The position numbers were made by a program, and so were the translations under genes. From an uncultured Pelagibacteraceae bacterium (GTDB taxonomy: Bacteria > Pseudomonadota > Alphaproteobacteria > Pelagibacterales > Pelagibacteraceae), in contig CACBYP010000003.1 in the NCBI GenBank assembly GCA_902543485.1, positions 91,549 through 155,548 of the forward strand: a stretch of 64,000 nt of DNA. Reading direction: 5' to 3'. Of this stretch, positions 5,648 through 36,862 are shown in pieces (position 1 is the stretch's first letter; the number at the start of each line of letters is the position of its first letter). The notes under the pieces are model-generated. The model was given only the letters and a program-made list of their open reading frames with translations, was not told where the DNA came from and searched no databases.

Positions 5648-6819
5648 TGAAATCCATTGAAAATTTAGAAAATATTGAAAATAAAAGAGTAATTCTTAGA
5701 CTTGATTTAAATGTTCCAATAAAAAATGGAAAAATAACAGACCCTAACCGAATTGATAAGGTTATGCCTACACTAGAATTTCTATTAAAAAAAAAAGCAA
5801 AGATTATAATAATTTCTCACGTTGGAAGGCCAAAAGGTAAAATAGTTAAGGAACTTTCTCTAGAATTGGTATCGTTGTATATTAAAAGTAAAATTAAAAA
5901 AGAAGTATCGTTACTTAAAGAAAATATTTTTAATCTAAATAAAGAAAACATTTTTAAGAATTCAAATCATGAGTTGGTACTACTTGAAAATATTAGATTC
6001 TATCCTGAAGAAGAGGCCAACGATGATAAATTTTCAAAGAAATTAGCAAGCTTAGGTGAAATATATGTTAATGATGCATTTTCCTGTTCACACAGAGATC
6101 ATGCTTCTGTATCAAAAATAACAAGGTATATTCCATCGTACAGTGGAATTCAAATTAATGCAGAGGTAAATGCTCTCAACAAGATAACTTCTGAAATAAA
6201 AAAACCTATAACATGTATAATTGGTGGATCTAAAATATCTTCGAAAATAAATATAATAAAAAATTTAATACCAAAATTTAATAGTATTATAATAGTTGGT
6301 GCTATGGCAAATAATATACTGAAATTCAAAGGTTTAAAAATTGGTAGCTCTGTATATGAAAAAAATATTGATTACATAATTCAAGAAATTTTCACCTATG
6401 CTGAAAAAAATAAATGTAAAATATATTTTCCTAAAGATGTTAAAATTGGAAAAAAATTGAACGATAAATCTTTTGAAAAAGATTTTAAAGACATTGAAGA
6501 TGATGATATGATACTTGATGTAGGATCAAAAACATTAATTGAAATAAAAAAAATTATTGACGATTCCTCGACAATATTATGGAACGGACCATTAGGTTAC
6601 TTTGAAAATGAGAATTTTTCATTAGGAAGTATAGAAGTTGCAAAATATATATCGAATAGAGGGAACAAAATATTTTCCGTTGTTGGTGGAGGCGATACGG
6701 TTGCGGTAATTAATTCACTAAATATGAAAGATAAATTTAATTTTGTTTCAACTGCAGGTGGAGCATTTTTAGAATATCTTGAAGGCAAAGTTCTCCCTGG
6801 TATAAAAGCATTAAATTAA
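5647..6819 (+). CDS. pgk: Phosphoglycerate kinase
   Basis: RVILRLDLNVPIKNGKITD, ISHVGRPKG, VVGGGDTVAVI, STAGGAFLEYLEGK. Confidence 0.97.
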   Translation: MKSIENLENIENKRVILRLDLNVPIKNGKITDPNRIDKVMPTLEFLLKKKAKIIIISHVGRPKGKIVKELSLELVSLYIKSKIKKEVSLLKENIFNLNKENIFKNSNHELVLLENIRFYPEEEANDDKFSKKLASLGEIYVNDAFSCSHRDHASVSKITRYIPSYSGIQINAEVNALNKITSEIKKPITCIIGGSKISSKINIIKNLIPKFNSIIIVGAMANNILKFKGLKIGSSVYEKNIDYIIQEIFTYAEKNKCKIYFPKDVKIGKKLNDKSFEKDFKDIEDDDMILDVGSKTLIEIKKIIDDSSTILWNGPLGYFENENFSLGSIEVAKYISNRGNKIFSVVGGGDTVAVINSLNMKDKFNFVSTAGGAFLEYLEGKVLPGIKALN

Positions 6820-15663: not shown

Positions 15664-15691
15664 CTTATAGATTATTTATTTTTTTTTACAA
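15664..15691 (-). promoter_or_regulatory. Candidate sigma70-type promoter for 5S rRNA: -35 TTGTAA (15691-15686), 16 nt spacer, -10 TATAAG (15669-15664)
   Basis: Read from the minus strand; -10 ends 6 nt before the predicted 5S 5' end; the -35 lies inside the 3' end of the upstream GT2 ORF. Confidence 0.45.
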
Positions 15692-16370
15692 CCAATAAAG
15701 TATGTAATATTTGCGCTAAGAATAGAGCGATTATTTTTAAATTAAACTTAGAATTTTCGTATTTTCTTTTATTAAAAAATATATTTTGATGTTCAATTTT
15801 AATATTGTGTTTTCCATTATAGATAATATCAAACAATATTTTATATCCTCTTTTAAAAAAAGTATTCTCATAGTCTAAAATTACTTCTTTTCTACATAGA
15901 AAAAACCCAGATAGAGGATCTAGAGATTTTTTGCTTAATATTAAATTTATTAATCTAATGGCTAAATTAGATATTAAACTTCTAAAAATACCTAAATTAC
16001 CTTCCAATGTGCTATTACCAAATCTACTTCCAATCACAATATCTGCGTTATTTTCTATTAGTTTATTTTTCATTTTTAAAATGTATTTTGGATTATGTTG
16101 AAGATCACAATCCATAACTAAAATTATTTTATTTTTAGATATTTTCACTCCTTTTAACACAGACTTAGATAAATCTCTTTGATCTAAATTTCTAAAAAAT
16201 ACTTTAACTTTTTTAATTTTTTTTAATTTTTTTAATTCTAAAATAGTTCCATCAGTGGAATTATCATCTACAAAAATAATTTCTGATATAAACTTTTGCT
16301 TTAATAAACTATCAAGCAATTTTGATATATTTTTTTTTTCATTATATGTTGGTATTACAACCGATATCAT
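15672..16370 (-). CDS. Glycosyltransferase family 2 (polyprenol/dolichol-P-mannose synthase-like)
   Basis: MISVVIPTYNEKKNISKLLDSLL...FVDDNSTDGT...MDCDLQHNPK. Confidence 0.9.
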   Translation of the reverse strand: MISVVIPTYNEKKNISKLLDSLLKQKFISEIIFVDDNSTDGTILELKKLKKIKKVKVFFRNLDQRDLSKSVLKGVKISKNKIILVMDCDLQHNPKYILKMKNKLIENNADIVIGSRFGNSTLEGNLGIFRSLISNLAIRLINLILSKKSLDPLSGFFLCRKEVILDYENTFFKRGYKILFDIIYNGKHNIKIEHQNIFFNKRKYENSKFNLKIIALFLAQILHTLLVVKKNK

Positions 16371-19166: not shown

Positions 19167-19859
19167 TTATTTAAAAATGCTATATCTAACAATACAAAAT
19201 AATGCTCTAAAAGCATCTTTTATTGTAATTTTTTTTCCTTCTTCATAAGATCTGCCACTATAACTTATTGGTACCTCATAGAATATAAATTTTTTTTTTG
19301 CTAATTTCACTGTTATCTCAGGTTCAATTCCAAAACCTTTTTCTGCAAGAGATATATCTTTAAGACATTCTTTTTTAAAAACTTTATATCCAGTTTCCAT
19401 ATCTGTCATATTCAAATTGGTAAAAATATTTGTCATTGTTGTGAGTAATTTGTTTGCAATATAATGCCAATAATAGTGGAGTCTCACATAGTCCCCTCCC
19501 ATAAACCTTGATCCATAAACAATTTGAGCATCTGTTTTAATAAATGGCACAATAAGCTTACTATAATCACTAGGATCATACTCTAAATCTGCGTCTTGAA
19601 TTAAAATTAGATCTCCTGTTGCATTTGAAAACCCCGTTTTTAATGCAGAACCTTTTCCTTTATTATTTTCATGATTTATTAAAATAATATCTCGATATTT
19701 TTCTTTTAATTCCATAAGAATTTTTGATGTGTTATCTGTTGAACCATCATTAATGATGATAACTTCTTTAATTATTTTTTCTTGCATGTAAATTTTATCT
19801 ATAATTAGGGAAATTGTTTTTTCCTCGTTAAAACATGGTATAATAATAGATACTTTCAT
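19167..19859 (-). CDS. Glycosyltransferase family 2 (DPM1-like); ORF extends to 19895 but start probably at 19859
   Basis: MKVSIIIPCFNEEKTISLIIDKI...IINDGSTDNT...LIQDADLEYDPSDY. Confidence 0.92.
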   Translation of the reverse strand: MKVSIIIPCFNEEKTISLIIDKIYMQEKIIKEVIIINDGSTDNTSKILMELKEKYRDIILINHENNKGKGSALKTGFSNATGDLILIQDADLEYDPSDYSKLIVPFIKTDAQIVYGSRFMGGDYVRLHYYWHYIANKLLTTMTNIFTNLNMTDMETGYKVFKKECLKDISLAEKGFGIEPEITVKLAKKKFIFYEVPISYSGRSYEEGKKITIKDAFRALFCIVRYSIFK

Positions 19860-21217
19860 TTTTTTATATTTATAATTTGGAAAATCATAATACAAATAAT
19901 AAGTGCAAATCCACCATTAAAATAGCCAGCTCCCCTAATTAATTGTGTTAATATTATAGGTAAATAAAAAAGTTTATTTCCTATACTGATTTTAGTATTA
20001 AATAAGTAATTTATTAAATAAAAGAAAAAAACAATACTAAAAACTCCAAACTCAACAATTATTTTAAAAAGATTATTACTTCCATCTTTTATATTATACT
20101 CGCCTACTCTTTTATTAATTGGTGGATACATTTTATTATAAAATTCAAAGGCATCACTATATCGATTTAAACCCCATCCAAATGGCCTATCTTTTATAGA
20201 AATTAAGGTTATTCTTAAGTTATTTAAATAAATTGATGAAGATAAAAATGTATCAAGCTCAAGCTTAGCTTTAATTATATTGTAAATCCTTATGTAATTT
20301 TTTTTAATGTATGGAATCTCATTTTGATTTTTAATTTCTTTATTATATTTATTTATATCAAAATCTTTATTATCATACTCAAGAACAAAAATTCTATATT
20401 TACATTCATCACTGTTGATAAAACTTAATGAAAACACAATTAATAGTGTTGCAAATAAAATTTGCGTTTTTTTTTTGATTTTATCGAAATTAAATAAATT
20501 AATTATAATTATACTTAAAATTACACCTACAATTAGTGTCGTTGAGCTTTTAATAAAACAAACGATAGCAAAAATTAGAATTAATAATTTTACAATATTT
20601 GAAATTTTTTTTTCACTGACAATATAAATACCATAAGCCAAAACTCCAGGTGCAACCATCCCTAAGTGTGAGTTTTCTTTAAATAAAAGTTCTGAGAAAG
20701 ATACTTTATAAGGAGATGAACTAACTCTACCAAGATCCACACTCGAGTGAGTAAAAAAACTAAATACATCAGGTATCCCACCGCAAAAAAATGGTGCATC
20801 AGGTAATTTTAATAAAATACCTATTGAAGATGATATTAAAAATAGGAATAGGAATAATATTAAAGATTTTTCTAAAATTTCTGAGAAATTATTATTAAAA
20901 TAGACAGAAACTAAAATAATAAATGAAAAAAAAATGTAAGAAAATAAAATATTGTAATCTAATTTTGCATTGTCATAAAATAAATTTATAAACAAATGTA
21001 AAAATAAAAATAAAATTATAAATGAGGATAATTTTAAAGAGCTATAATTACTATTTTTTAAATCTTTAATTAATTTGTAAATAAGGGGTATAAATATTAT
21101 TAGAATTAAAAATCTTGCTTGAAATAACTCAAATTTAACATCCCATAAATATACAAAGCTTATAAAGCCAATGTATAAAAATAAATAATCACTATTATTT
21201 TTTGTTTTTTCTAACAT
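19856..21217 (-). CDS. O-antigen polymerase/ligase-like membrane protein
   Basis: Polytopic; DRPFGWGLNRYSDAF loop typical of Wzy/WaaL-type proteins. Confidence 0.6.
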   Translation of the reverse strand: MLEKTKNNSDYLFLYIGFISFVYLWDVKFELFQARFLILIIFIPLIYKLIKDLKNSNYSSLKLSSFIILFLFLHLFINLFYDNAKLDYNILFSYIFFSFIILVSVYFNNNFSEILEKSLILFLFLFLISSSIGILLKLPDAPFFCGGIPDVFSFFTHSSVDLGRVSSSPYKVSFSELLFKENSHLGMVAPGVLAYGIYIVSEKKISNIVKLLILIFAIVCFIKSSTTLIVGVILSIIIINLFNFDKIKKKTQILFATLLIVFSLSFINSDECKYRIFVLEYDNKDFDINKYNKEIKNQNEIPYIKKNYIRIYNIIKAKLELDTFLSSSIYLNNLRITLISIKDRPFGWGLNRYSDAFEFYNKMYPPINKRVGEYNIKDGSNNLFKIIVEFGVFSIVFFFYLINYLFNTKISIGNKLFYLPIILTQLIRGAGYFNGGFALIICIMIFQIINIKK

Positions 21218-23533: not shown

Positions 23534-24124
23534 CTATAAATTATTTGTCCAAATATTAGCACAAATCATGTCTGTCATAACTGCATTTGGAAAATATTTA
23601 TTTTTTTTGAAAAAATTAATATAATTTTTTATATCTTTTTTTCTATTCCATCTCTCTGGACTTACTAAACAAGTTTTATATTTTTTGAGATATACTAAGT
23701 TTTTATTGTTTAACGGTAATTTATTAACAGTATCTATCCATACCCATTTTACAAATCTCCTTAAATTATTTGTCAATTCCAGTGGTTCAAATTCAGAAAA
23801 TCTTGATGATAAATTGTTTTTTAAATTACCTTTTGAGGTAAATATAAAAGGGTGCTCAACATCTAATAAAAAAAATGATTTAACTTTGTATTTTTTAGCC
23901 ATTGTAATAACATCTTTTTCTATACCCGCCTCTTTAATGTTAAAAATAATAGTGCCATTTTGATAATTTTTTAAAAAATTAGATAATTTATCTCCGTTTT
24001 TTTTTGGTTCATGATTTAAAATTAGCTCTGAATTAAAGGATCTTACATCAATCTCAACACCAAAATTTTTTGGAATAGATTTTAAAAATTTTATTTTATT
24101 AACTCTATGAATAATTATTTCCAT
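23534..24124 (-). CDS. Glycerophosphodiester phosphodiesterase-like TIM-barrel protein
   Basis: IIHRVN...NFGVEIDVRSFNSELILNHEPKKNGD resembles the GDPD HR/ExD/H pattern. Confidence 0.6.
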   Translation of the reverse strand: MEIIIHRVNKIKFLKSIPKNFGVEIDVRSFNSELILNHEPKKNGDKLSNFLKNYQNGTIIFNIKEAGIEKDVITMAKKYKVKSFFLLDVEHPFIFTSKGNLKNNLSSRFSEFEPLELTNNLRRFVKWVWIDTVNKLPLNNKNLVYLKKYKTCLVSPERWNRKKDIKNYINFFKKNKYFPNAVMTDMICANIWTNNL

Positions 24125-24824
24125 TTATTTTTAATTTCAAAATATATTTTAATGATCTGTATGTTAATTTAATTTTGCCTAGTAAATTTCCTCCACCTTT
24201 TGCTGTTCCCGCAAATCTTTGCCCCCAATTAATTGGAAATTTCTTAATCTTATATTTAAAATGAGTTGATAATACCAGTAAATATAAATCTAAAGAAAAG
24301 TCATAAGGTGGGTTCTTGAACTTTTCTACAAATTTTTTGTTAAAAATTTTTGGTTGAGCATTAATATCTTCTAAATTTGTATCAAATATAAGGTTTACTA
24401 ATTTTGCCATAAAAAAAGTAAATAATCTGTCAAAAATTGTTCGATTTACTCTTTTTCCTTTAACTATAACTTTTTCATAGAGAAGCTCGTGTTTATATTT
24501 TAAAATTGCTTTTAAGACATCATTTGGATTTATTTGTAAATCTGCATGAAACCATGCAATTATTTTACCTGAGGAAATTTTTATCCCCATCAATATTCCG
24601 TGACCATATCCAAGATTTTTATTTAAGTTTTTTAATTTAAACTTTTTATTCTTAAAAATTGGATGGTTCCTTATGACCTTTATTGTATCATCGGTTGAAC
24701 CATTATTAACTAATATAACTTCAACTTTAGAGTTTTGTTTAATTATTTTTAATAGTTTATTACATAAAATTTTGAGATTTTTTGCCTCATTAAAACTAGG
24801 TACTACCAAACTTATCAAATTCAT
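24105..24824 (-). CDS. Glycosyltransferase family 2
   Basis: LVVPSFNEAKNLKILCNKLL...LVNNGSTDDTIKVI...GYGHGILMGIKIS...FHADLQINP. Confidence 0.92.
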   Translation of the reverse strand: MNLISLVVPSFNEAKNLKILCNKLLKIIKQNSKVEVILVNNGSTDDTIKVIRNHPIFKNKKFKLKNLNKNLGYGHGILMGIKISSGKIIAWFHADLQINPNDVLKAILKYKHELLYEKVIVKGKRVNRTIFDRLFTFFMAKLVNLIFDTNLEDINAQPKIFNKKFVEKFKNPPYDFSLDLYLLVLSTHFKYKIKKFPINWGQRFAGTAKGGGNLLGKIKLTYRSLKYILKLKINGNNYS

Positions 24825-25564
24825 AAAGTATTAAAATTGTTAAGTTCTTTTGGAGTTCCCCAACTAATATATTTTTTTACTTTGATATAGCTAACTTTCA
24901 TTTTTAGTTTTAATGCAATTTCAACACAAGTGTCTAAATAAAATTCATTATTAACCATAAGTCTTGATTTAAATAAATTATTTAATAATTTTTTAAATAT
25001 TTCGATATTTTTAAAAGCGAATATTCCTATTATAATCCAATCTTTTTCTGGTTTATTACTTACTTTAGATTTGCATGAACTTTTTAATATCTTTTCATTT
25101 TTTAATTTTATCCATCCAAAATTATTAAAATTATCAATATTAAATTTATTTGGTTTATTAACAAAAACTACAAAGTCATTTTTATGAAGTTTTTTTTCTA
25201 AAATTTTTTTATTGTATTCTATATACAGATCACAAGATGTAATAATTATATTCGAAAAAGGGTTTATGTATTTTTTTGCTTTGGAAACAGTTCTTGCTTG
25301 ACCATCTGTTTTATTTTTTAAAAAAATTATTTTTTTATTTTTAAATTTTTTATTTATTAGTTTTTTGTAATTATTTGCGAATCTATTTTTTCTTACTATA
25401 AAAAACCATTTATTATTCAATCCGTGCGATTCCGCTGCTTTTATAAACATTGGTGTACTCTTAACATTAATTAAAGGTTTCGGTTTTTTAAAACCTTCAA
25501 TTTTAAATCTTTTACCAATTCCAGACATTGGCATAATATAAATATTTTTATTTTTCATTGACAA
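24821..25564 (-). CDS. Sugar-phosphate nucleotidyltransferase (RmlA/MobA-like fold)
   Basis: IYIMPMSGIGKRFKIEGFKKPKPLINV; NIIITSCDLYIEYNK; ISWGTPKELNNF. Confidence 0.82.
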   Translation of the reverse strand: MSMKNKNIYIMPMSGIGKRFKIEGFKKPKPLINVKSTPMFIKAAESHGLNNKWFFIVRKNRFANNYKKLINKKFKNKKIIFLKNKTDGQARTVSKAKKYINPFSNIIITSCDLYIEYNKKILEKKLHKNDFVVFVNKPNKFNIDNFNNFGWIKLKNEKILKSSCKSKVSNKPEKDWIIIGIFAFKNIEIFKKLLNNLFKSRLMVNNEFYLDTCVEIALKLKMKVSYIKVKKYISWGTPKELNNFNTL

Positions 25565-26147
25565 GTTTTGCCTTCTTTAAATAGATATGTCTCCCTTTTG
25601 TATATTTATAAAAATATACGAATCTAAAATTTTCTTTTAATATTTTTTTTGAACTTAAAAACTTTTTAAATAAATTATCAGAAGTTAAAGAATTATTTAC
25701 TGAAGCTATTGTTAAATGCGGTTTCCAATTTTTATTAACAAATGGATAACCGAAAATCCTATAATTTCTATTAAATTCTTTATTTTTGAATTTTAATTTT
25801 TCTAATTTTTTAAATTTCTTAAATTTAAGTAATAATTTATCTTGGATTCTTTGCAATGTTTTATTTTTTTTTACCAAAAGAATAAATGTTATTTTTTTTG
25901 TGATAGGGTCCGATTCAAAATAATATCTTTTTTTTATAATTATCTTTAATTCATTTAATTTTAAATTTTTAATTTTAATTTCATTTTTTAAATTTATTTT
26001 GCTATTAATTTTCAAATTGAAAATAGTCAAATGAGGTAAATGATCGACGTAAGTTTGTTTTCCAAATTTTTTAAAAACTTCACCTTTGTATTTTTTTACT
26101 TCCAGAAAGATTTTTTTGTTAGGTTTTATTAATGCTACTAAGTTCAT
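25548..26147 (-). CDS. 2H phosphoesterase (2'-5' RNA ligase-like)
   Basis: Two HxT motifs: VDHLPHLTIFN and WKPHLTIASVN. Confidence 0.72.
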   Translation of the reverse strand: MNLVALIKPNKKIFLEVKKYKGEVFKKFGKQTYVDHLPHLTIFNLKINSKINLKNEIKIKNLKLNELKIIIKKRYYFESDPITKKITFILLVKKNKTLQRIQDKLLLKFKKFKKLEKLKFKNKEFNRNYRIFGYPFVNKNWKPHLTIASVNNSLTSDNLFKKFLSSKKILKENFRFVYFYKYTKGRHIYLKKAKLVNEK

Positions 26148-27546
26148 TTATTTTGAAATATAATATTTTTTTAAGAGATTTTCTCTCTATATTGGGTATC
26201 AATTTACCATTCAAAATTATAAAATTTAATTCTTTTAAATGGTCAATATTAATTTTATACCAGTCACTCATCTCAATATTGAAAAATTTGCCTATTAAAC
26301 ATCTAAGAAAAACATTATGGGTCACAACTAAATAATTAGTTGAAATATTTTTTTGATCTAATGATATAAGAGTATTTGTAAAATGATTAACTCTACTTAA
26401 AACCATTTTATTGTTTTCACCTGATGGAAATCTGACATCTTTTTTATCATTCCAACCCTTTATTATTGATGGAAATTTATCTTTTAATTGGTTGAAATTT
26501 AATCCATCAGCTTTGCCGTAATTTATCTCTTTTAAATTATTATTTAATTTAATTTTTTTGTTTGATTGAAATAACTTCGCTGTTTGTATAGCTCTCTTTA
26601 AAGGGCTAGAAAATATTCTACCGTATTTTTTGTTAAATTTTTTTTTTGGCCTCAATATTCCTATATCATTTTTACCTAAAAAAGATCCATCATTATTCTT
26701 AGTTTTTGCATGGCGTATAAATGTAACTGAACTTGTATTTTTTTTATAACTTTTTAGCCTTTTATAAAACATATCTAAAAATTTTTTAATAATTCTTAAG
26801 ATTTCTGAATCTTTATTTTTTAATAATCTATGAATCTGCTTTATAAATTTTTTGTCAAAATTTTGGGTAATTAAAAATATTTCCTCATTTTTTTTATTTA
26901 ATTTTACATTTTTTTGTTTGAGGAATTTATAGAAATTATTTACATTTTGACTAAATATATGCTTAGAATAATTTAGTATATTTAACTTATCTAAATTTTT
27001 ATAATAGGACTTTATTTGATAGTTATTTTTTTTGAAAATGTAACTATAAATTGATATTTGATGACTTTTTAAATCTTTATAATATTTGTTTATTGCTCTT
27101 CTTGAGTAAAAAAAATCAATCAGTTGTAAATTATTGACATTATAAATATCTTTTAATTTTAAACCAATTGATATGTTTTTTCTTTCCCAATCAAAACAAG
27201 TAAATGGACTCTTAATTACATGTTCTACATGTCCTTTAATATCATAAATCATCAAATGGACAGTAAAATAAACATTTTTATTATATTTTAATGGGCCAAA
27301 CGTATCGTTAATTTTAACTTTTTTTTTTGTATTAAAATTATGTTTTTTTACTATTAATTTACATTTACTATATATTTCTTTGGATATTTTTTTTGAAATA
27401 ATTACTAAATCTAAATCTCCTATGTCATTTAATTTTTTATTTTGGGCAAATGAACCTACAATGTTGGCTGAAATTACTCCATCTATTGCATAAATTTTAT
27501 TTAATAAATTTACAATATTTTTTTTGTTTTTTTTAATATTATCCAA
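26119..27546 (-). CDS. Fusion: N-terminal Pol-beta-type nucleotidyltransferase + C-terminal histidine phosphatase (phosphoglycerate mutase-like)
   Basis: N-term GSFAQNKKLNDIGDLDLVII; C-term SSVTFIRHAKTKNNDGSFLG...FSSPLKRAIQTAKLF...NYLVVTHNVFLRCL. Confidence 0.8.
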   Translation of the reverse strand: MDNIKKNKKNIVNLLNKIYAIDGVISANIVGSFAQNKKLNDIGDLDLVIISKKISKEIYSKCKLIVKKHNFNTKKKVKINDTFGPLKYNKNVYFTVHLMIYDIKGHVEHVIKSPFTCFDWERKNISIGLKLKDIYNVNNLQLIDFFYSRRAINKYYKDLKSHQISIYSYIFKKNNYQIKSYYKNLDKLNILNYSKHIFSQNVNNFYKFLKQKNVKLNKKNEEIFLITQNFDKKFIKQIHRLLKNKDSEILRIIKKFLDMFYKRLKSYKKNTSSVTFIRHAKTKNNDGSFLGKNDIGILRPKKKFNKKYGRIFSSPLKRAIQTAKLFQSNKKIKLNNNLKEINYGKADGLNFNQLKDKFPSIIKGWNDKKDVRFPSGENNKMVLSRVNHFTNTLISLDQKNISTNYLVVTHNVFLRCLIGKFFNIEMSDWYKINIDHLKELNFIILNGKLIPNIERKSLKKILYFKINELSSINKT

Positions 27547-28639
27547 TTTCGTACCTTGAAACTGTTTGAAGTTTCATAATTTCTATTATAGGTTTTTCAC
27601 TTCGTAGTACAGCTGCACCAGAAACTATTTTTTCACAATTAATTTTTTTTATGATTTTCGAGTTTACACCTCCATCAACCAATATTTTCATTTTTTTTCT
27701 GCTTCTATTCTTGTCAATTCTTTTAATTAAATCGAGGGCTCTAATATTGAATTTTTGACCTGAATATCCTGGGTTATCAATAGACAAAATCATAATTTCT
27801 TTAAAATTATTTAATATATGATCTAGATTTTGGTATTTATATTTTGCTGTTAATACAACTCCTGGAAGAACGTTATGTTTTAAAATATAATCTCTGAGGT
27901 CATTTAAATTCTCGTCTATTTCATAATGTATATAAATAATTTTAGAAAATTTTATAACTTTATCTATTATATACATAGGTGTTTTTGACATAATATGAGT
28001 ATGTATTTCTTTCTTAGGCCAATAAGAATTAATTTGCTCTAACTTTGAAAAATCTATGAGGTCAGCACTTTCTCTCATTGTTCTGTCAACAACATCAACA
28101 TGAATAAAATCAGGATATTCTCCTATTTTACTTTTTATTTTATCTAACTCCTCATGTCCATTTGCGTATATAGCTACTCCTACGCTAATTATTTTTTTAA
28201 ACGTAAATGCTAAGTGAAAAAAATATCCAATTATAAAAAATGTTCCTGAAAAAAAAAGTCTTTGTAAATTGTAATCAAATTGTTCAATAATTATATAATT
28301 TTTTAGTACTTTTTGAATTGAAAAAGAGAACAACGAAATAATAAAAAAATAAACTAATGATCTTCTGAGATATATTTTAGGGACTGCAAAATTAAACCTT
28401 ATGTTGAAATAAAAAGCAAAAAATATTCCTAATATTAATGGTAGGTATGTATATATTGTTTCATATGCATTGAAATTTATTAGCATTTTTCTTGTTATAA
28501 GCTCAAGTAAAATTGATAAAAAACCAATTAAAATATAGATTATTAAAAACTTTTTTTGATATAAAAAAAAATAAAATTTTTTCATCAGTTTTTTTTTAAT
28601 TTTGGCCGTAATATTTTTTTTTACTATGTTTTCTATCAA
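27539..28639 (-). CDS. Fusion: N-terminal GtrA-like 4-TM domain + C-terminal ribulose-phosphate 3-epimerase-like domain
   Basis: N-term FLIIYILIGFLSILLELITRKML...LILGIFFAFYFNIRFNF; C-term FIHVDVVDRTMRE, SIDNPGYSGQKFN, KILVDGGVN, IVSGAAVL. Confidence 0.83.
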   Translation of the reverse strand: MIENIVKKNITAKIKKKLMKKFYFFLYQKKFLIIYILIGFLSILLELITRKMLINFNAYETIYTYLPLILGIFFAFYFNIRFNFAVPKIYLRRSLVYFFIISLFSFSIQKVLKNYIIIEQFDYNLQRLFFSGTFFIIGYFFHLAFTFKKIISVGVAIYANGHEELDKIKSKIGEYPDFIHVDVVDRTMRESADLIDFSKLEQINSYWPKKEIHTHIMSKTPMYIIDKVIKFSKIIYIHYEIDENLNDLRDYILKHNVLPGVVLTAKYKYQNLDHILNNFKEIMILSIDNPGYSGQKFNIRALDLIKRIDKNRSRKKMKILVDGGVNSKIIKKINCEKIVSGAAVLRSEKPIIEIMKLQTVSRYEIG

Positions 28640-29288
28640 AATGAAATTTTGATATATATTTAGGTAATTTCGATTTGACTCCTATCTTAATTGAAGCATA
28701 AGCCATGTGTGCAATATACTCTATTAAATTTGAATTTATTACTGCCTTTGTATAATTTTCACCCCAGGCAAATTGCCCATGTCCTGAAACAAGTAATCCA
28801 GGACAGTTACTCATGTTAATTTTATCATCTGCTATTTTTTCACAAATAAGTTTTCCTGTAAAAAACTCATATTTTTTCATCTGTGCTCTGCTCAGATATT
28901 TGACTACAGGAATGTCTTTTTCCCAGAAATCTGCATGGGTAGTTCCCAGTAGTGGTATTGGTCTGGCTGCTTGAGCCCAAGCAGTTGCAAATTTGGAATG
29001 GCAATGAGAAATACTTTTAATATTTTTAAATTTCTTATAAATTTCTAAATGAGTTGGTGTATCAACAGAAGGTTTTAAATTAGTTTTATTTACTTTTTTT
29101 CCTGTTGGAATGTTAATCAATGGACAACTACCTTTGTTTAATTTCTTAACATTAACTCCACTGGGTTTTATAAAGAAATGATTTTCATTTACTCTAATAC
29201 TAACATTTCCAAATGAATGTTCACTTAATCCAAATTCTGTAAGTTTAATGTTTTGACTAATACAAATTTTTTCTAGTTTTTCGTACAT
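28596..29288 (-). CDS. L-ribulose-5-phosphate 4-epimerase (AraD-like, class II aldolase/adducin family)
   Basis: SVDTPTHLEIYKKFKNIKSISHCHSKFATAWAQAARPIPLLGTTHADFWEKDIPV closely matches the AraD/UlaF/SgbE pattern. Confidence 0.87.
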   Translation of the reverse strand: MYEKLEKICISQNIKLTEFGLSEHSFGNVSIRVNENHFFIKPSGVNVKKLNKGSCPLINIPTGKKVNKTNLKPSVDTPTHLEIYKKFKNIKSISHCHSKFATAWAQAARPIPLLGTTHADFWEKDIPVVKYLSRAQMKKYEFFTGKLICEKIADDKINMSNCPGLLVSGHGQFAWGENYTKAVINSNLIEYIAHMAYASIKIGVKSKLPKYISKFHFDRKHSKKKYYGQN

Positions 29289-29432: not shown

Positions 29433-31094
29433 TTATAATGTCTCTTTATCAGATGTTTGTATAAACAAATAATTATTTTTAAACTCGATTATATAATTTT
29501 TTTTAACTTTATATAAACAAGGTTGTTTAAAATCTCCGCATTTCCAATTAGTGCTAAGAAACAATTCAATTTCATCTGTTTTTAAAAGACTTTTAATTTT
29601 TGAATAATCATAGGTTTTGTTGATAGGATTTATCAAATTATTCAAAGTAAATTTATTAAAATTTTTTACAATCAACGAAGCGCCAAAAATTATTACTAAG
29701 ACTGGAAAAATATTGAAGTGAACTTTTTTTAATATTGATTGTTCATATATAATCAAGGATAAAAATAAGCATGGGAAAAAAATTAAGACCCCCCATCCAA
29801 ATCTTATTTCTGGGGCCTGAAACCATATTATGAAATTAATTAAATAAAGAATAATAAAACTATAATAAAAATTCGGGAGCTCATATTTTTTTTTTTTTAA
29901 AAAATTTTTAATATAAATAAAAAAAGAACAGATTAATGAAAAAATAAAAATAGTAAAACTGATTAATAAAAACGCGTCTGAAATAAAATAACTTTTAATC
30001 CATGGAATTATCCAATCAAAACTATTAAGAGTATAGTCAAAATTAAGATATTTATCTCTTAATGGCGTATCCCTAGCAAAACTTTTTGTCTGATTTAAAT
30101 AAAAATCTACCTGATTTTTAGACAAAGACCAGCTACTATTAAAACATGTAAATTTAAATGGAAATATTAAACAAGAACTTAAAATGAAATTTCGTATCAT
30201 CCATATAACTACCAAGACAGATCCTAAAAAAGACACTAAATTAAAAATTTTAATCTTTTTGTAATATTTTGCAAAAATTATAATTAAAAATAAAAAGGAT
30301 CCAATATATGTTAACTTGATAAGTATGCAAATTACTGTGCAAACTATTAGTAAATAATATGAATTTGACTCTTTTTTTTCTAAAAAATTTAAAAAAAGAT
30401 AGCCTGCTGCTATAAAAAAAATCATCCCAATTGTATCAACCTCGGGATTACCTAAATGGTTAAATATAATTCCATTATTAAAAGGATGTAAGTAACTAAA
30501 AATAAACAAGAAACATGTTGAAAAAAATAACGTAAAATAACTTATGCTAAATTTATTTTTATTTTCAAACAATTCATTAAAAATAAATGCAAAAGGTATA
30601 AAATTTACTACGTATAGAAAATTAAATTTTTTGTAGTCTAGACTGAATAGAGATAAGAATATATGCCAAACAGAATTTAATGCATAATGCCAATCTAATA
30701 TAGCTAAACCGAAAGTGACTTTATAATTATGTATCCAATTAATTGTTTGCAAATGATAAATTGGAGAGTCTACATTATTTCCATTCCAATACGAAAAAAA
30801 TGAAAATAAAAATAAAAAAAATGCTAATCCTAAAAATTTAATTTGTATTTTTTTTTTGAAATTTCCTAAAATAAAAAAGAAAATTCCAATTAAATAAAAT
30901 ATAATTTTTATTTTTTCTACAGGAAGAAAAAAGTTAATAATAATAATTAAAAGTATTAAAAAAAAAATGCCATATAAAAAATCAAAGTTTTTTATATATT
31001 GGTTTTTTGGTGGAAAAAATAATATTTTGAAAAAAAAGGAGTATCCTAAAATAATAAATGATATAAATATATTTCCTATAAAAGATATTATCAT
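29433..31094 (-). CDS. Large polytopic membrane protein (family copy B)
   Basis: Many TMs; NNVDSPIYHLQTINWIHNYKV motif; CLIFPFKFTCF motif parallel to CVFYPLEITCI in copy A. Confidence 0.6.
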   Translation of the reverse strand: MIISFIGNIFISFIILGYSFFFKILFFPPKNQYIKNFDFLYGIFFLILLIIIINFFLPVEKIKIIFYLIGIFFFILGNFKKKIQIKFLGLAFFLFLFSFFSYWNGNNVDSPIYHLQTINWIHNYKVTFGLAILDWHYALNSVWHIFLSLFSLDYKKFNFLYVVNFIPFAFIFNELFENKNKFSISYFTLFFSTCFLFIFSYLHPFNNGIIFNHLGNPEVDTIGMIFFIAAGYLFLNFLEKKESNSYYLLIVCTVICILIKLTYIGSFLFLIIIFAKYYKKIKIFNLVSFLGSVLVVIWMIRNFILSSCLIFPFKFTCFNSSWSLSKNQVDFYLNQTKSFARDTPLRDKYLNFDYTLNSFDWIIPWIKSYFISDAFLLISFTIFIFSLICSFFIYIKNFLKKKKYELPNFYYSFIILYLINFIIWFQAPEIRFGWGVLIFFPCLFLSLIIYEQSILKKVHFNIFPVLVIIFGASLIVKNFNKFTLNNLINPINKTYDYSKIKSLLKTDEIELFLSTNWKCGDFKQPCLYKVKKNYIIEFKNNYLFIQTSDKETL

Positions 31095-34825: not shown

Positions 34826-36862
34826 ATGCAGTCCTCTACATTGAATATTTTTAAAAATGAAAGTGTCGATTTTTCATTTAAATTTAATATTTATTTTTTT
34901 TTGATATTAATAAATTTTTTAACTTATTCAATTTATGCTGTATTATCGAAGTATAACATATTATTTATAGAAATTTTTATTAATCTTAACTTTCTAGCTT
35001 TTTTTTATTTATATAAAAAAAGCATAAATTCTTACATATTGATAAATTTAGTACTTAAAAGAAAAGAAATATTTTTTTTCTTATTTTTATTGTTTTTTTT
35101 AATTTTAATTAGTTTTTCAGAACTAAAACTACCATTATTTATTGATGAACTGGCATATACAAGAAGAGCCATACGAACTGCATATTTTTCATCATTTTTA
35201 ATCAGCAGCATTTTTGATTATGAGATCCTAAAATCGGTTCCCTTAAAATTTATAATACAAATTGTTAGTATAATTCAAATTATTTTTATTATATGTATTT
35301 TTTATTTAATTAAAAACAAAAGTAACTTAGTTACATTATTTGTTATTTTATTTATTAATTTTATATTTAGATTAATTTTAAAAGATGGAATTCATCATCC
35401 ACCATTAAATCATTTTTTTTCTAGCGCATTCATTTCTTTCTTTGGTTTAAGCCATATATCAATAAGAATGGCTTACTTGATACCTTTTTGGTTTTTTTTA
35501 ATTTCAATTTATACTTTAGCTAAAGAAACTCTAGGCAATAAAATTACTGCTAGTTTTTTATTAAGTCTATCAACTTTTCCATTACTTATTATATCAAGCG
35601 TATCTCCTGATCATTCTATCTGGTCATGCTTATTATTTACATATTTATTAATTTATCTGTCTACAAAAAAAAATATTGATTATAGGTTCTGTGTATTGTT
35701 AATTTCTGTTGGTATTTTATTTAGAATATCAATTTTTTCGTCTTTTTTACTTATTGGTTTGTGTTTAATAAATGATTTGATTAATAAAAAATTTTTAATA
35801 AAACAAAAATTAAAATTCTTAATTTTTGAACAAAAAATACCTTTAATTACATTTGTCTTTTTACCTCTTTTAATAATTAGTTTGCTAGGAACTCCAGCTT
35901 ACGAGGGTGTAGAAAATGTAAATGCAATTCAATATTTTTATCAAGCAATTAAATCTAAAGTGATAATTAACTCTTTAATTAAACAAATACCATTCTGGTA
36001 CTACATCTTTATTATAATAGTGCTTATATCACCATATAAAATTCCAATCTTAATATTTTTTATATTCAATCTTTTAATATATTTCTCAGTAGACCCAGAC
36101 CTTTGGGGGCAATCAAAATATGTTTTGGAATACGGGGTTCCATTTATTGTACTTGGGCATTTTTTATTAAATAAATATTTAATATCAAAAAAATTAATTA
36201 TGATTATTTATTTGATAAATTTATCGATATTTTTTTCTAATATTTATGAAATAGCTAATTTTCCTAAATCAAATATATCATCTGATTTAATATATAAGAA
36301 AGGTTTGTTTTCATTCAATAAGGATAGAGATAAGAAAACAAAGTATATACTTAAAATACCATATAAGTATGACGATGCTTTTGATTACGTTTCAAAAAAG
36401 GATGCAAAAAAAAATACTTTATTTTTAGGCACAACTTATGGTTTTTTACCTTATATCATAGAAGATTATAATTATTTAGAAATAATTGAAACTATTAAAC
36501 TTCGAAATGATTTTGACAGTATTTTAAATAGTGAGTATTCGCTGTCAAATAAAATTAAAGTAATTGATGATAAATTAAATTTTAGAGACAAAATTAAAAA
36601 TTATTTAAACATGATGAGAAAGAAAAGTATCTTAAAGAGGGAGAAAAGTTTTAAAAATTTAAAAGATAGCAAAGATAATGAGAGTGAAATTTTTACCAAA
36701 GTTAGTGATATTAAAAATCTAAAGTATATAATTTTAGCAAATTATGGAAATAGAGAAAATATTATTAAAACATTAACTTCAAATAATTGGATAATAGAAA
36801 AAAAATTTATAGAAACAAACTACAGATCAACATTATTATTATTTAAAAAACTAAGTAATTAA
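34826..36862 (+). CDS. Polytopic membrane glycosyltransferase-like protein (PMT/ArnT-like GT-C fold)
   Basis: Early LFIDELAYTRRA acidic loop motif followed by many TMs and a soluble C-terminal tail. Confidence 0.5.
   Translation: MQSSTLNIFKNESVDFSFKFNIYFFLILINFLTYSIYAVLSKYNILFIEIFINLNFLAFFYLYKKSINSYILINLVLKRKEIFFFLFLLFFLILISFSELKLPLFIDELAYTRRAIRTAYFSSFLISSIFDYEILKSVPLKFIIQIVSIIQIIFIICIFYLIKNKSNLVTLFVILFINFIFRLILKDGIHHPPLNHFFSSAFISFFGLSHISIRMAYLIPFWFFLISIYTLAKETLGNKITASFLLSLSTFPLLIISSVSPDHSIWSCLLFTYLLIYLSTKKNIDYRFCVLLISVGILFRISIFSSFLLIGLCLINDLINKKFLIKQKLKFLIFEQKIPLITFVFLPLLIISLLGTPAYEGVENVNAIQYFYQAIKSKVIINSLIKQIPFWYYIFIIIVLISPYKIPILIFFIFNLLIYFSVDPDLWGQSKYVLEYGVPFIVLGHFLLNKYLISKKLIMIIYLINLSIFFSNIYEIANFPKSNISSDLIYKKGLFSFNKDRDKKTKYILKIPYKYDDAFDYVSKKDAKKNTLFLGTTYGFLPYIIEDYNYLEIIETIKLRNDFDSILNSEYSLSNKIKVIDDKLNFRDKIKNYLNMMRKKSILKREKSFKNLKDSKDNESEIFTKVSDIKNLKYIILANYGNRENIIKTLTSNNWIIEKKFIETNYRSTLLLFKKLSN

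Follow-up and report, generated by a model that had tools for sequence, protein, structure and literature searches.

A conserved seven-gene cassette of a SAR11 genome as a candidate route to lipid-linked L-pentulose donors for surface glycans

The activation of ketoses such as xylulose for bacterial glycans is a step to which the literature we found assigns no enzymes. In a 64,000-nucleotide stretch of contig CACBYP010000003.1 from an uncultured SAR11 bacterium of the Pelagibacteraceae (the window), seven adjoining minus-strand open reading frames (ORFs) at 23534-29288, which overlap or are parted by gaps of a few bases, constitute a compact candidate enzyme set for it. A first-pass annotation, made from the sequence, had taken the seven genes for one unit, and this view holds: every ORF is present in the window sequence, and because the whole unit is conserved in other phyla a chance arrangement is excluded. 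By our estimate there is about an even chance that the cassette synthesises, for use in surface glycans, a lipid-linked donor of an L-pentulose, either L-ribulose or L-xylulose, and flips it. The unit itself, its conservation, the integrity of its catalytic residues, a complementarity between AraD and ribulokinase, and a core common to sister cassettes were directly established. The genes, with the membrane protein that flanks them, are as follows.

28596..29288, minus strand: AraD-like L-ribulose-5-phosphate 4-epimerase, 230 aa (NCBIfam PRK08193, E 6.6e-65; PDB 1jdi, E 3.8e-42)
27539..28639, minus strand, likely start ATG 28585: GtrA-type membrane domain fused to a ribulose-phosphate 3-epimerase (RPE)-like domain, GtrA::RPE (PF00834, E 5e-21)
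26119..27546, minus strand: Pol-beta-type nucleotidyltransferase fused to a histidine phosphatase, NTase::HisPhos, 475 aa (PF00300, E 5.6e-25)
25548..26147, minus strand: 2H phosphoesterase-like protein, 199 aa (PF13563, 2_5_RNA_ligase2, E 9e-7)
24821..25564, minus strand: sugar nucleotidyltransferase NTP, GT-A fold, 247 aa (PF00483, E 8.7e-5)
24105..24824, minus strand: GT2 glycosyltransferase of the polyprenyl-phosphate-sugar synthase type, 239 aa (PF00535, E 5.2e-22)
23534..24124, minus strand: minimal GDPD-type phosphodiesterase, 196 aa (family residues; AlphaFold/Foldseek)
29433..31094, minus strand, outside the conserved seven: flanking membrane protein, 553 aa, 12 predicted transmembrane (TM) segments, candidate GT-C acceptor-specific transferase (NF047510, LIC_10190 family, E 3e-44)

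For GtrA::RPE, beginning at TTG 28639 probably makes the protein too long, and ATG 28585 fits the homologous sequences better.

Relatives of the cassette were sought at the protein level in 397 genomes of the order, and the NTase::HisPhos alignment was scanned against 84,980 species genomes, a pattern scan whose yield is a lower bound on loci. Co-occurrence in other genomes, on which the first-pass annotation had staked its proposal, was borne out by this neighbourhood analysis, which found the set syntenic in other SAR11 and in about six phyla. The order search recovered three more SAR11 genomes with complete synteny (34-56% protein identity), and the scan at least 20 loci, hosted by SAR11 and other Alphaproteobacteria, two Verrucomicrobia, an unclassified lake bacterium, Neomarinimicrobiota, a Cytophagaceae metagenome-assembled genome (MAG), Actinomarina and a Pacearchaeota MAG; because several loci come from MAGs, single phylum assignments carry a risk of misbinning. 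Six-frame profile hidden Markov model (HMM) searches of the 17 uncut loci (the window and 16 others) detected the six non-AraD families throughout, bar one GDPD, which is missing at the Actinomarina locus (L026); AraD is missing at three loci (L014, L015 and L018). A seeming loss of 2H and NTP in L015 and L018 proved in the same searches to be an artefact of overlapping spurious ORFs. Gene order is nearly fixed (AraD, GtrA::RPE, NTase::HisPhos, 2H, NTP, GT2, GDPD), though L022, L025 and L027 have relocated genes, and the distance matrices of all 21 family pairs co-vary (r 0.54-0.85, permutation p 0.001). The commonest other neighbour family, the NDP-sugar epimerases, occurs at 7 loci, and none reaches half of them. 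At the Pacearchaeota locus (L027) GtrA::RPE::NTase::HisPhos is a single 833-aa ORF, a fusion that supports joint action of the two proteins.

In five loci a separate GtrA-like protein is encoded between NTP and GT2 in addition to the RPE-fused GtrA (L013:12753-13145, L018:15140-15550, L019:12673-13086, L021:11334-11729 and L030:4261-4542). In L030 the cassette halves are inverted and AraD is truncated at 5994, and this locus is probably a chimera of single-cell amplification. Phage carriage was considered and rejected, NTase::HisPhos and GDPD being unmatched in phage records and absent from viral contigs, as was a GtrA::RPE fusion on plasmids, where ordinary RPE matches alone were found. When the NTase::HisPhos profile was run against the whole class, most matches were unrelated histidine phosphatases. 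The gene set is undescribed in the open-licence publications found, a scope that leaves its novelty unproven.

The AraD and RPE domains, whose catalytic residues the first-pass annotation had singled out for inspection, retain them: in alignments they are present and invariant. The cassette AraD matches TIGR00760 at E 1.6e-55 and aligns with 1jdi over residues 1-229; it falls below the curated NCBIfam cut-offs (218.9 bits against 257 for PRK08193, 187.8 against 389 for TIGR00760), and is thereby homologous to the curated clade yet outside it. N28, K41, S43, G44, S74, D76, H95, H97, D120, H170, H216 and Y227 are invariant among 15 cassette AraDs and two AraDs that stand beside a ribulokinase, and equivalents of the E. 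coli AraD zinc ligands (H95, H97 and H171) and catalytic residues (D120 and Y229) are invariant in these 17 sequences in a full-length alignment. In cassette GtrA::RPE proteins the metal ligands and acid/base residues H180, D182, H215 and D322 (of the H35, D37, H70 and D175 type) are likewise invariant, and alignment with the genome's own RPE shows the canonical pocket serine and two methionines (S10, M39 and M141 type) to be replaced. Since that separate housekeeping RPE (L062) exists elsewhere in the genome, and several canonical pocket residues are lost, the cassette domain, which also matches D-allulose-6-phosphate 3-epimerase models, probably performs another 3-epimerisation. The RPE role first assigned is therefore kept as regards catalysis but not as regards the step proposed for it, the interconversion of D-ribulose-5-phosphate and D-xylulose-5-phosphate; our preferred guess is the conversion of L-ribulose-5-phosphate to L-xylulose-5-phosphate.

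Domain-by-domain HMM searches of the kind that annotation called for confirmed AraD, RPE, histidine phosphatase, 2H, NTP and GT2, but found no GDPD, GtrA or N-terminal NTase match in the window proteins themselves. PF04138 (GtrA_DPMS_TM) matches 9 of 19 GtrA::RPE family members (best E 1.5e-12; the window protein is unmatched), and PF01909 (NTP_transf_2) was found in 13 of the 16 N-terminal domains of the NTase::HisPhos family and was not called in the window protein. The nucleotidyltransferase GS...DxD and phosphatase RH/R/E/H motifs are invariant in that family, and the AF2 model of the fusion (pLDDT 90) gave, for its C-terminal half, Foldseek matches to phosphoserine phosphatase and CobC-type phosphatases; a PDB profile search with the N-terminal NTase domain produced weak Pol-X matches alone, and Foldseek of the whole fusion was swamped by phosphatases. 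The 2H protein has two H-x-T/S motifs, with H39 and H144 invariant in 16 members. NTP scores 22.7 bits against the NTP_transferase cut-off of 21.2, and its family profile matches 4evw (E 3e-16) and GlmU (E 6e-11); PgfS and ArnC (PRK10714) are among the best NCBIfam matches of GT2. The last ORF has no Pfam match. Its AlphaFold model (pLDDT 95) has the GDPD 2pz0 as top Foldseek match (TMq 0.62-0.69), the HR...ExD...H signature of the GDPD family is invariant in 17 members (H6R7, E24xD26 and H38), and the predicted TIM barrel together with this signature places the protein in the GDPD superfamily. With their catalytic residues invariant, all cassette enzymes look active.

The distribution of ribulokinase indicates that the cassette apparently needs AraD activity and that its AraD is not arabinose-catabolic. 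The earlier remark that no kinase or isomerase of araBAD type accompanies the cassette can be extended to the whole genome (98% complete), in which AraA and ribulokinase were looked for and not found, and whose sole FGGY kinase reads as a glycerol kinase (32 bits to the ribulokinase model). Across 14 genomes, ribulokinase matches of 565-597 bits occur in all three that lack the cassette AraD and in none of the 11 that have it (Fisher p 0.0027), a contrast that is suggestive, not conclusive. Two of the three have an AraD gene immediately downstream of ribulokinase, and this AraD may stand in for that of the cassette. AraA was undetected in all 14 genomes, including the three with ribulokinase, so that the ribulokinase operon would use another entry route. 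The verrucomicrobial ribulokinase-AraD pairs (L107 and L109 with L068 and L070), in genomes with no detectable AraA_N match, read as a pathway of the arabinose or ribulose type in which either a different isomerase acts or L-ribulose is taken up directly.

A surface-glycan or lipid-linked role, as originally proposed, is backed by the pattern of GT2, GtrA and an adjoining membrane protein of GT-C size. Such a multi-TM protein (7-13 TM, about 340-890 aa) adjoins the cassette in 13 of 18 loci. These proteins are only partly homologous to one another (those of L014 and L021 cluster with the protein at window 34826-36862); the membrane neighbours are not one family, and no single conserved GT-C partner was found. 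By analogy, a variable membrane enzyme beside a conserved GT2 and GtrA appears to follow the logic of Gtr operons and of three-component systems.

For the pathway that we favour, we infer the substrates, the product, the order of steps and the involvement of a GT-C enzyme. Housekeeping RPE would supply D-xylulose-5-phosphate, which AraD would convert to L-ribulose-5-phosphate, and the cassette RPE domain would epimerise this at C3 to L-xylulose-5-phosphate or equilibrate it. NTase::HisPhos, 2H and GDPD would then relocate or replace the phosphate, through nucleotidyl transfer, 5-dephosphorylation and phosphodiester cleavage, leaving it at a position that the GT-A-fold NTP could use to make an NDP-pentulose. 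The DPM1/GtrB-like GT2 would load polyprenyl phosphate with the pentulose, the GtrA domain may take part in flipping the polyprenyl-P-pentulose, and a locus-specific neighbouring GT-C-type membrane enzyme would attach the sugar to the surface glycan. An L-xylulose product is plausible because L-xylulofuranose is known as an O-antigen side chain whose gene cluster names no donor pathway (PMC11380512).

Several points weigh against this pathway. The adjoining membrane proteins mostly have no Pfam GT-C match (of ten tested, one matches PMT_2 and another GT87, with a PMT_2 match also at window 34826-36862), and the 239-aa cassette GT2, by sequence and length, lacks the C-terminal TM helices of the GtrB type. 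GDPD may be dispensable or unlinked, because the Actinomarina locus has none, and to arrive at a pentose or pentitol, enzymes encoded outside the cassette would be required, because it has no isomerase or reductase. In the L015 genome, the third of those without cassette AraD, no AraD was found at all, possibly owing to incompleteness of the MAG; and part of the ribulokinase contrast depends on single-cell genomes and MAGs that are incomplete, many of the 11 being partial.

No furanose ring can form from a ketopentose 5-phosphate, which makes its terminal phosphate the obvious handle for a different chemistry, in which NTP makes a terminal NDP-5-pentulose, pentulose-5-phosphate is transferred as a phosphodiester, and GDPD and 2H serve to transfer phosphodiesters or to edit, the outcome being a phosphodiester-linked pentulose or pentitol. 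The presence of two phosphodiesterase-type enzymes within the unit suits this scheme, as does the terminal-phosphate activation known for CDP-glucitol in Campylobacter (PMC10918830), but GT2 and GtrA point to a polyprenyl-P-sugar donor, a pentitol would require a reductase that the cassette does not have, and the phosphatase domain would be superfluous; we consider it unlikely, at somewhat over one chance in five. Slightly less probable again is a hexulose or heptulose in place of the pentulose, with the AraD-like and RPE-like enzymes acting as C4 and C3 epimerases on a longer ketose phosphate, for example from fructose-6-phosphate to tagatose-, sorbose- or allulose-6-phosphate. The altered active site of the RPE domain and its matches to D-allulose-6-phosphate 3-epimerase models would accommodate such substrates, and 6-phospho-3-hexuloisomerase-like and GatZ-like enzymes occur in sister cassettes; the cassette AraD, however, is full length, near true AraD and keeps every catalytic residue, and ribulokinase-adjoining AraDs appear to replace it in two genomes. 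The usual products of AraD and RPE enter the pentose-phosphate pathway, and phosphodiesterases and phosphatases can be catabolic, but a unit degrading arabinose-, ascorbate-derived or phosphodiester-linked pentulose to D-xylulose-5-phosphate is very improbable in a genome without araA or ribulokinase, with NTP, GT2 and GtrA in the set and a low-GC surface-glycan island around it.

Pentulose specificity, as implied by the first-pass annotation, would apply to the conserved AraD/RPE part of the set but does not extend to its NTP-GT2-GDPD core, since sister cassettes pair that core with hexulose- and kinase-type modules. These cassettes combine GDPD, GT2 and a tandem NTP::NTP protein, often with GtrA, with different ketose-phosphate enzymes; a GDPD profile search located them in four SAR11 genomes and other Proteobacteria (L088, L089, L090, L091, L098-L102 and L104-L106). 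Their modules are a 6-phospho-3-hexuloisomerase-like protein, polyol dehydrogenases and a xylose-isomerase-like barrel in L088 and L089, a GatZ-like protein and a PRK-like kinase in L090, and a P-loop kinase-like::class II FBP-aldolase-like::RPE fusion in L091 and L101. Annotated examples, with GtrA, PRK/uridine kinase, HAD and class II aldolase, lie on an E. coli plasmid (IncR replicon), on Hirschia baltica pHbal01 and on an Azospirillum plasmid; the E. coli plasmid (NZ_CP145712.1:6022-14984, L104) carries a complete sister cassette, which is present in only 2 of the 5426 complete E. coli genomes. NTP, GT2 and GDPD are homologous between the two kinds of cassette. In sister cassettes a second NTP domain replaces the Pol-beta NTase, and AraD, RPE, HisPhos and 2H give way either to a kinase, an HAD phosphatase and a class II aldolase or to a hexuloisomerase with polyol dehydrogenases. 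In the NTP tree, type-A NTPs (the window class) mix with C-terminal type-B (sister) domains, and the N-terminal type-B domains fall into a single group (90/79 support), the deep forks being weak. The type-A NTase::HisPhos may fill the place of the extra type-B NTP and HAD. We tentatively suggest, at rather worse than even chances, a phylum-spanning class of donor pathways in which an NTP/GT2/GDPD/GtrA core makes lipid-linked ketoses and draws on interchangeable modules that edit ketose phosphates, with phosphate relocation via a nucleotidyl intermediate, and of which the window cassette is the AraD/RPE (L-pentulose) version.

Among known systems, the GtrA/GtrB/Gtr(type) operons of O-antigen glucosylation share with the cassette a GtrA flippase candidate and, apparently, a GT2 of polyprenyl-P-sugar synthase type and a variable, putatively GT-C-like membrane enzyme beside the conserved pair. 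Unlike them, the cassette brings its own donor-synthesis enzymes (AraD, RPE, NTase::HisPhos, 2H, NTP and GDPD), its GtrA is fused to RPE, and its donor is evidently not UDP-Glc. The three-component pentofuranose systems consist of PPPRS, a MATE flippase and GT136, and a UbiA-type enzyme makes their donor out of PRPP (Kelly et al. 2024, PMC11127046). As is proposed for the cassette, a lipid-linked five-carbon donor is there flipped and transferred outside the membrane, and an auxiliary epimerase diversifies the sugar; in contrast, no UbiA, PRP-HAD or MATE is found among the seven cassette proteins, and the cassette sugar appears to be edited as a ketose phosphate before activation. The CDP-ribitol and CDP-6-glucitol capsule precursors (PMC10918830) resemble the proposed product in the nucleotide activation of ketose-phosphate-derived units, and differ in that the cassette has no reductase and has a GT2, GtrA, a Pol-beta NTase and two phosphodiesterases.

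The candidate enzymes occur in relatives of SAR11, in further marine bacteria and in one archaeal MAG. If the proposed pathway is correct, pentulose-bearing surface glycans are predicted in abundant plankton, which bears on phage recognition and grazing, and the wider sister-cassette family reaches culturable bacteria (Hirschia and Azospirillum) as well as an E. coli plasmid.

A promoter scan found fewer sites than in shuffled sequences and is uninformative at the AT content of the window. From about 16 kb in the window, GC content drops from 0.29 to 0.21-0.24, which fits a variable surface-glycan island, and the low-GC stretch around the cassette also holds GDP-mannose dehydratase (GMD)-type genes, GT2s and Wzy-like membrane proteins. 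The cassette GT2 profile also matches two further GT2s, at 15672-16370 (198 bits) and 19167-19895 (104 bits), the former lying between epimerase/GMD-type genes.

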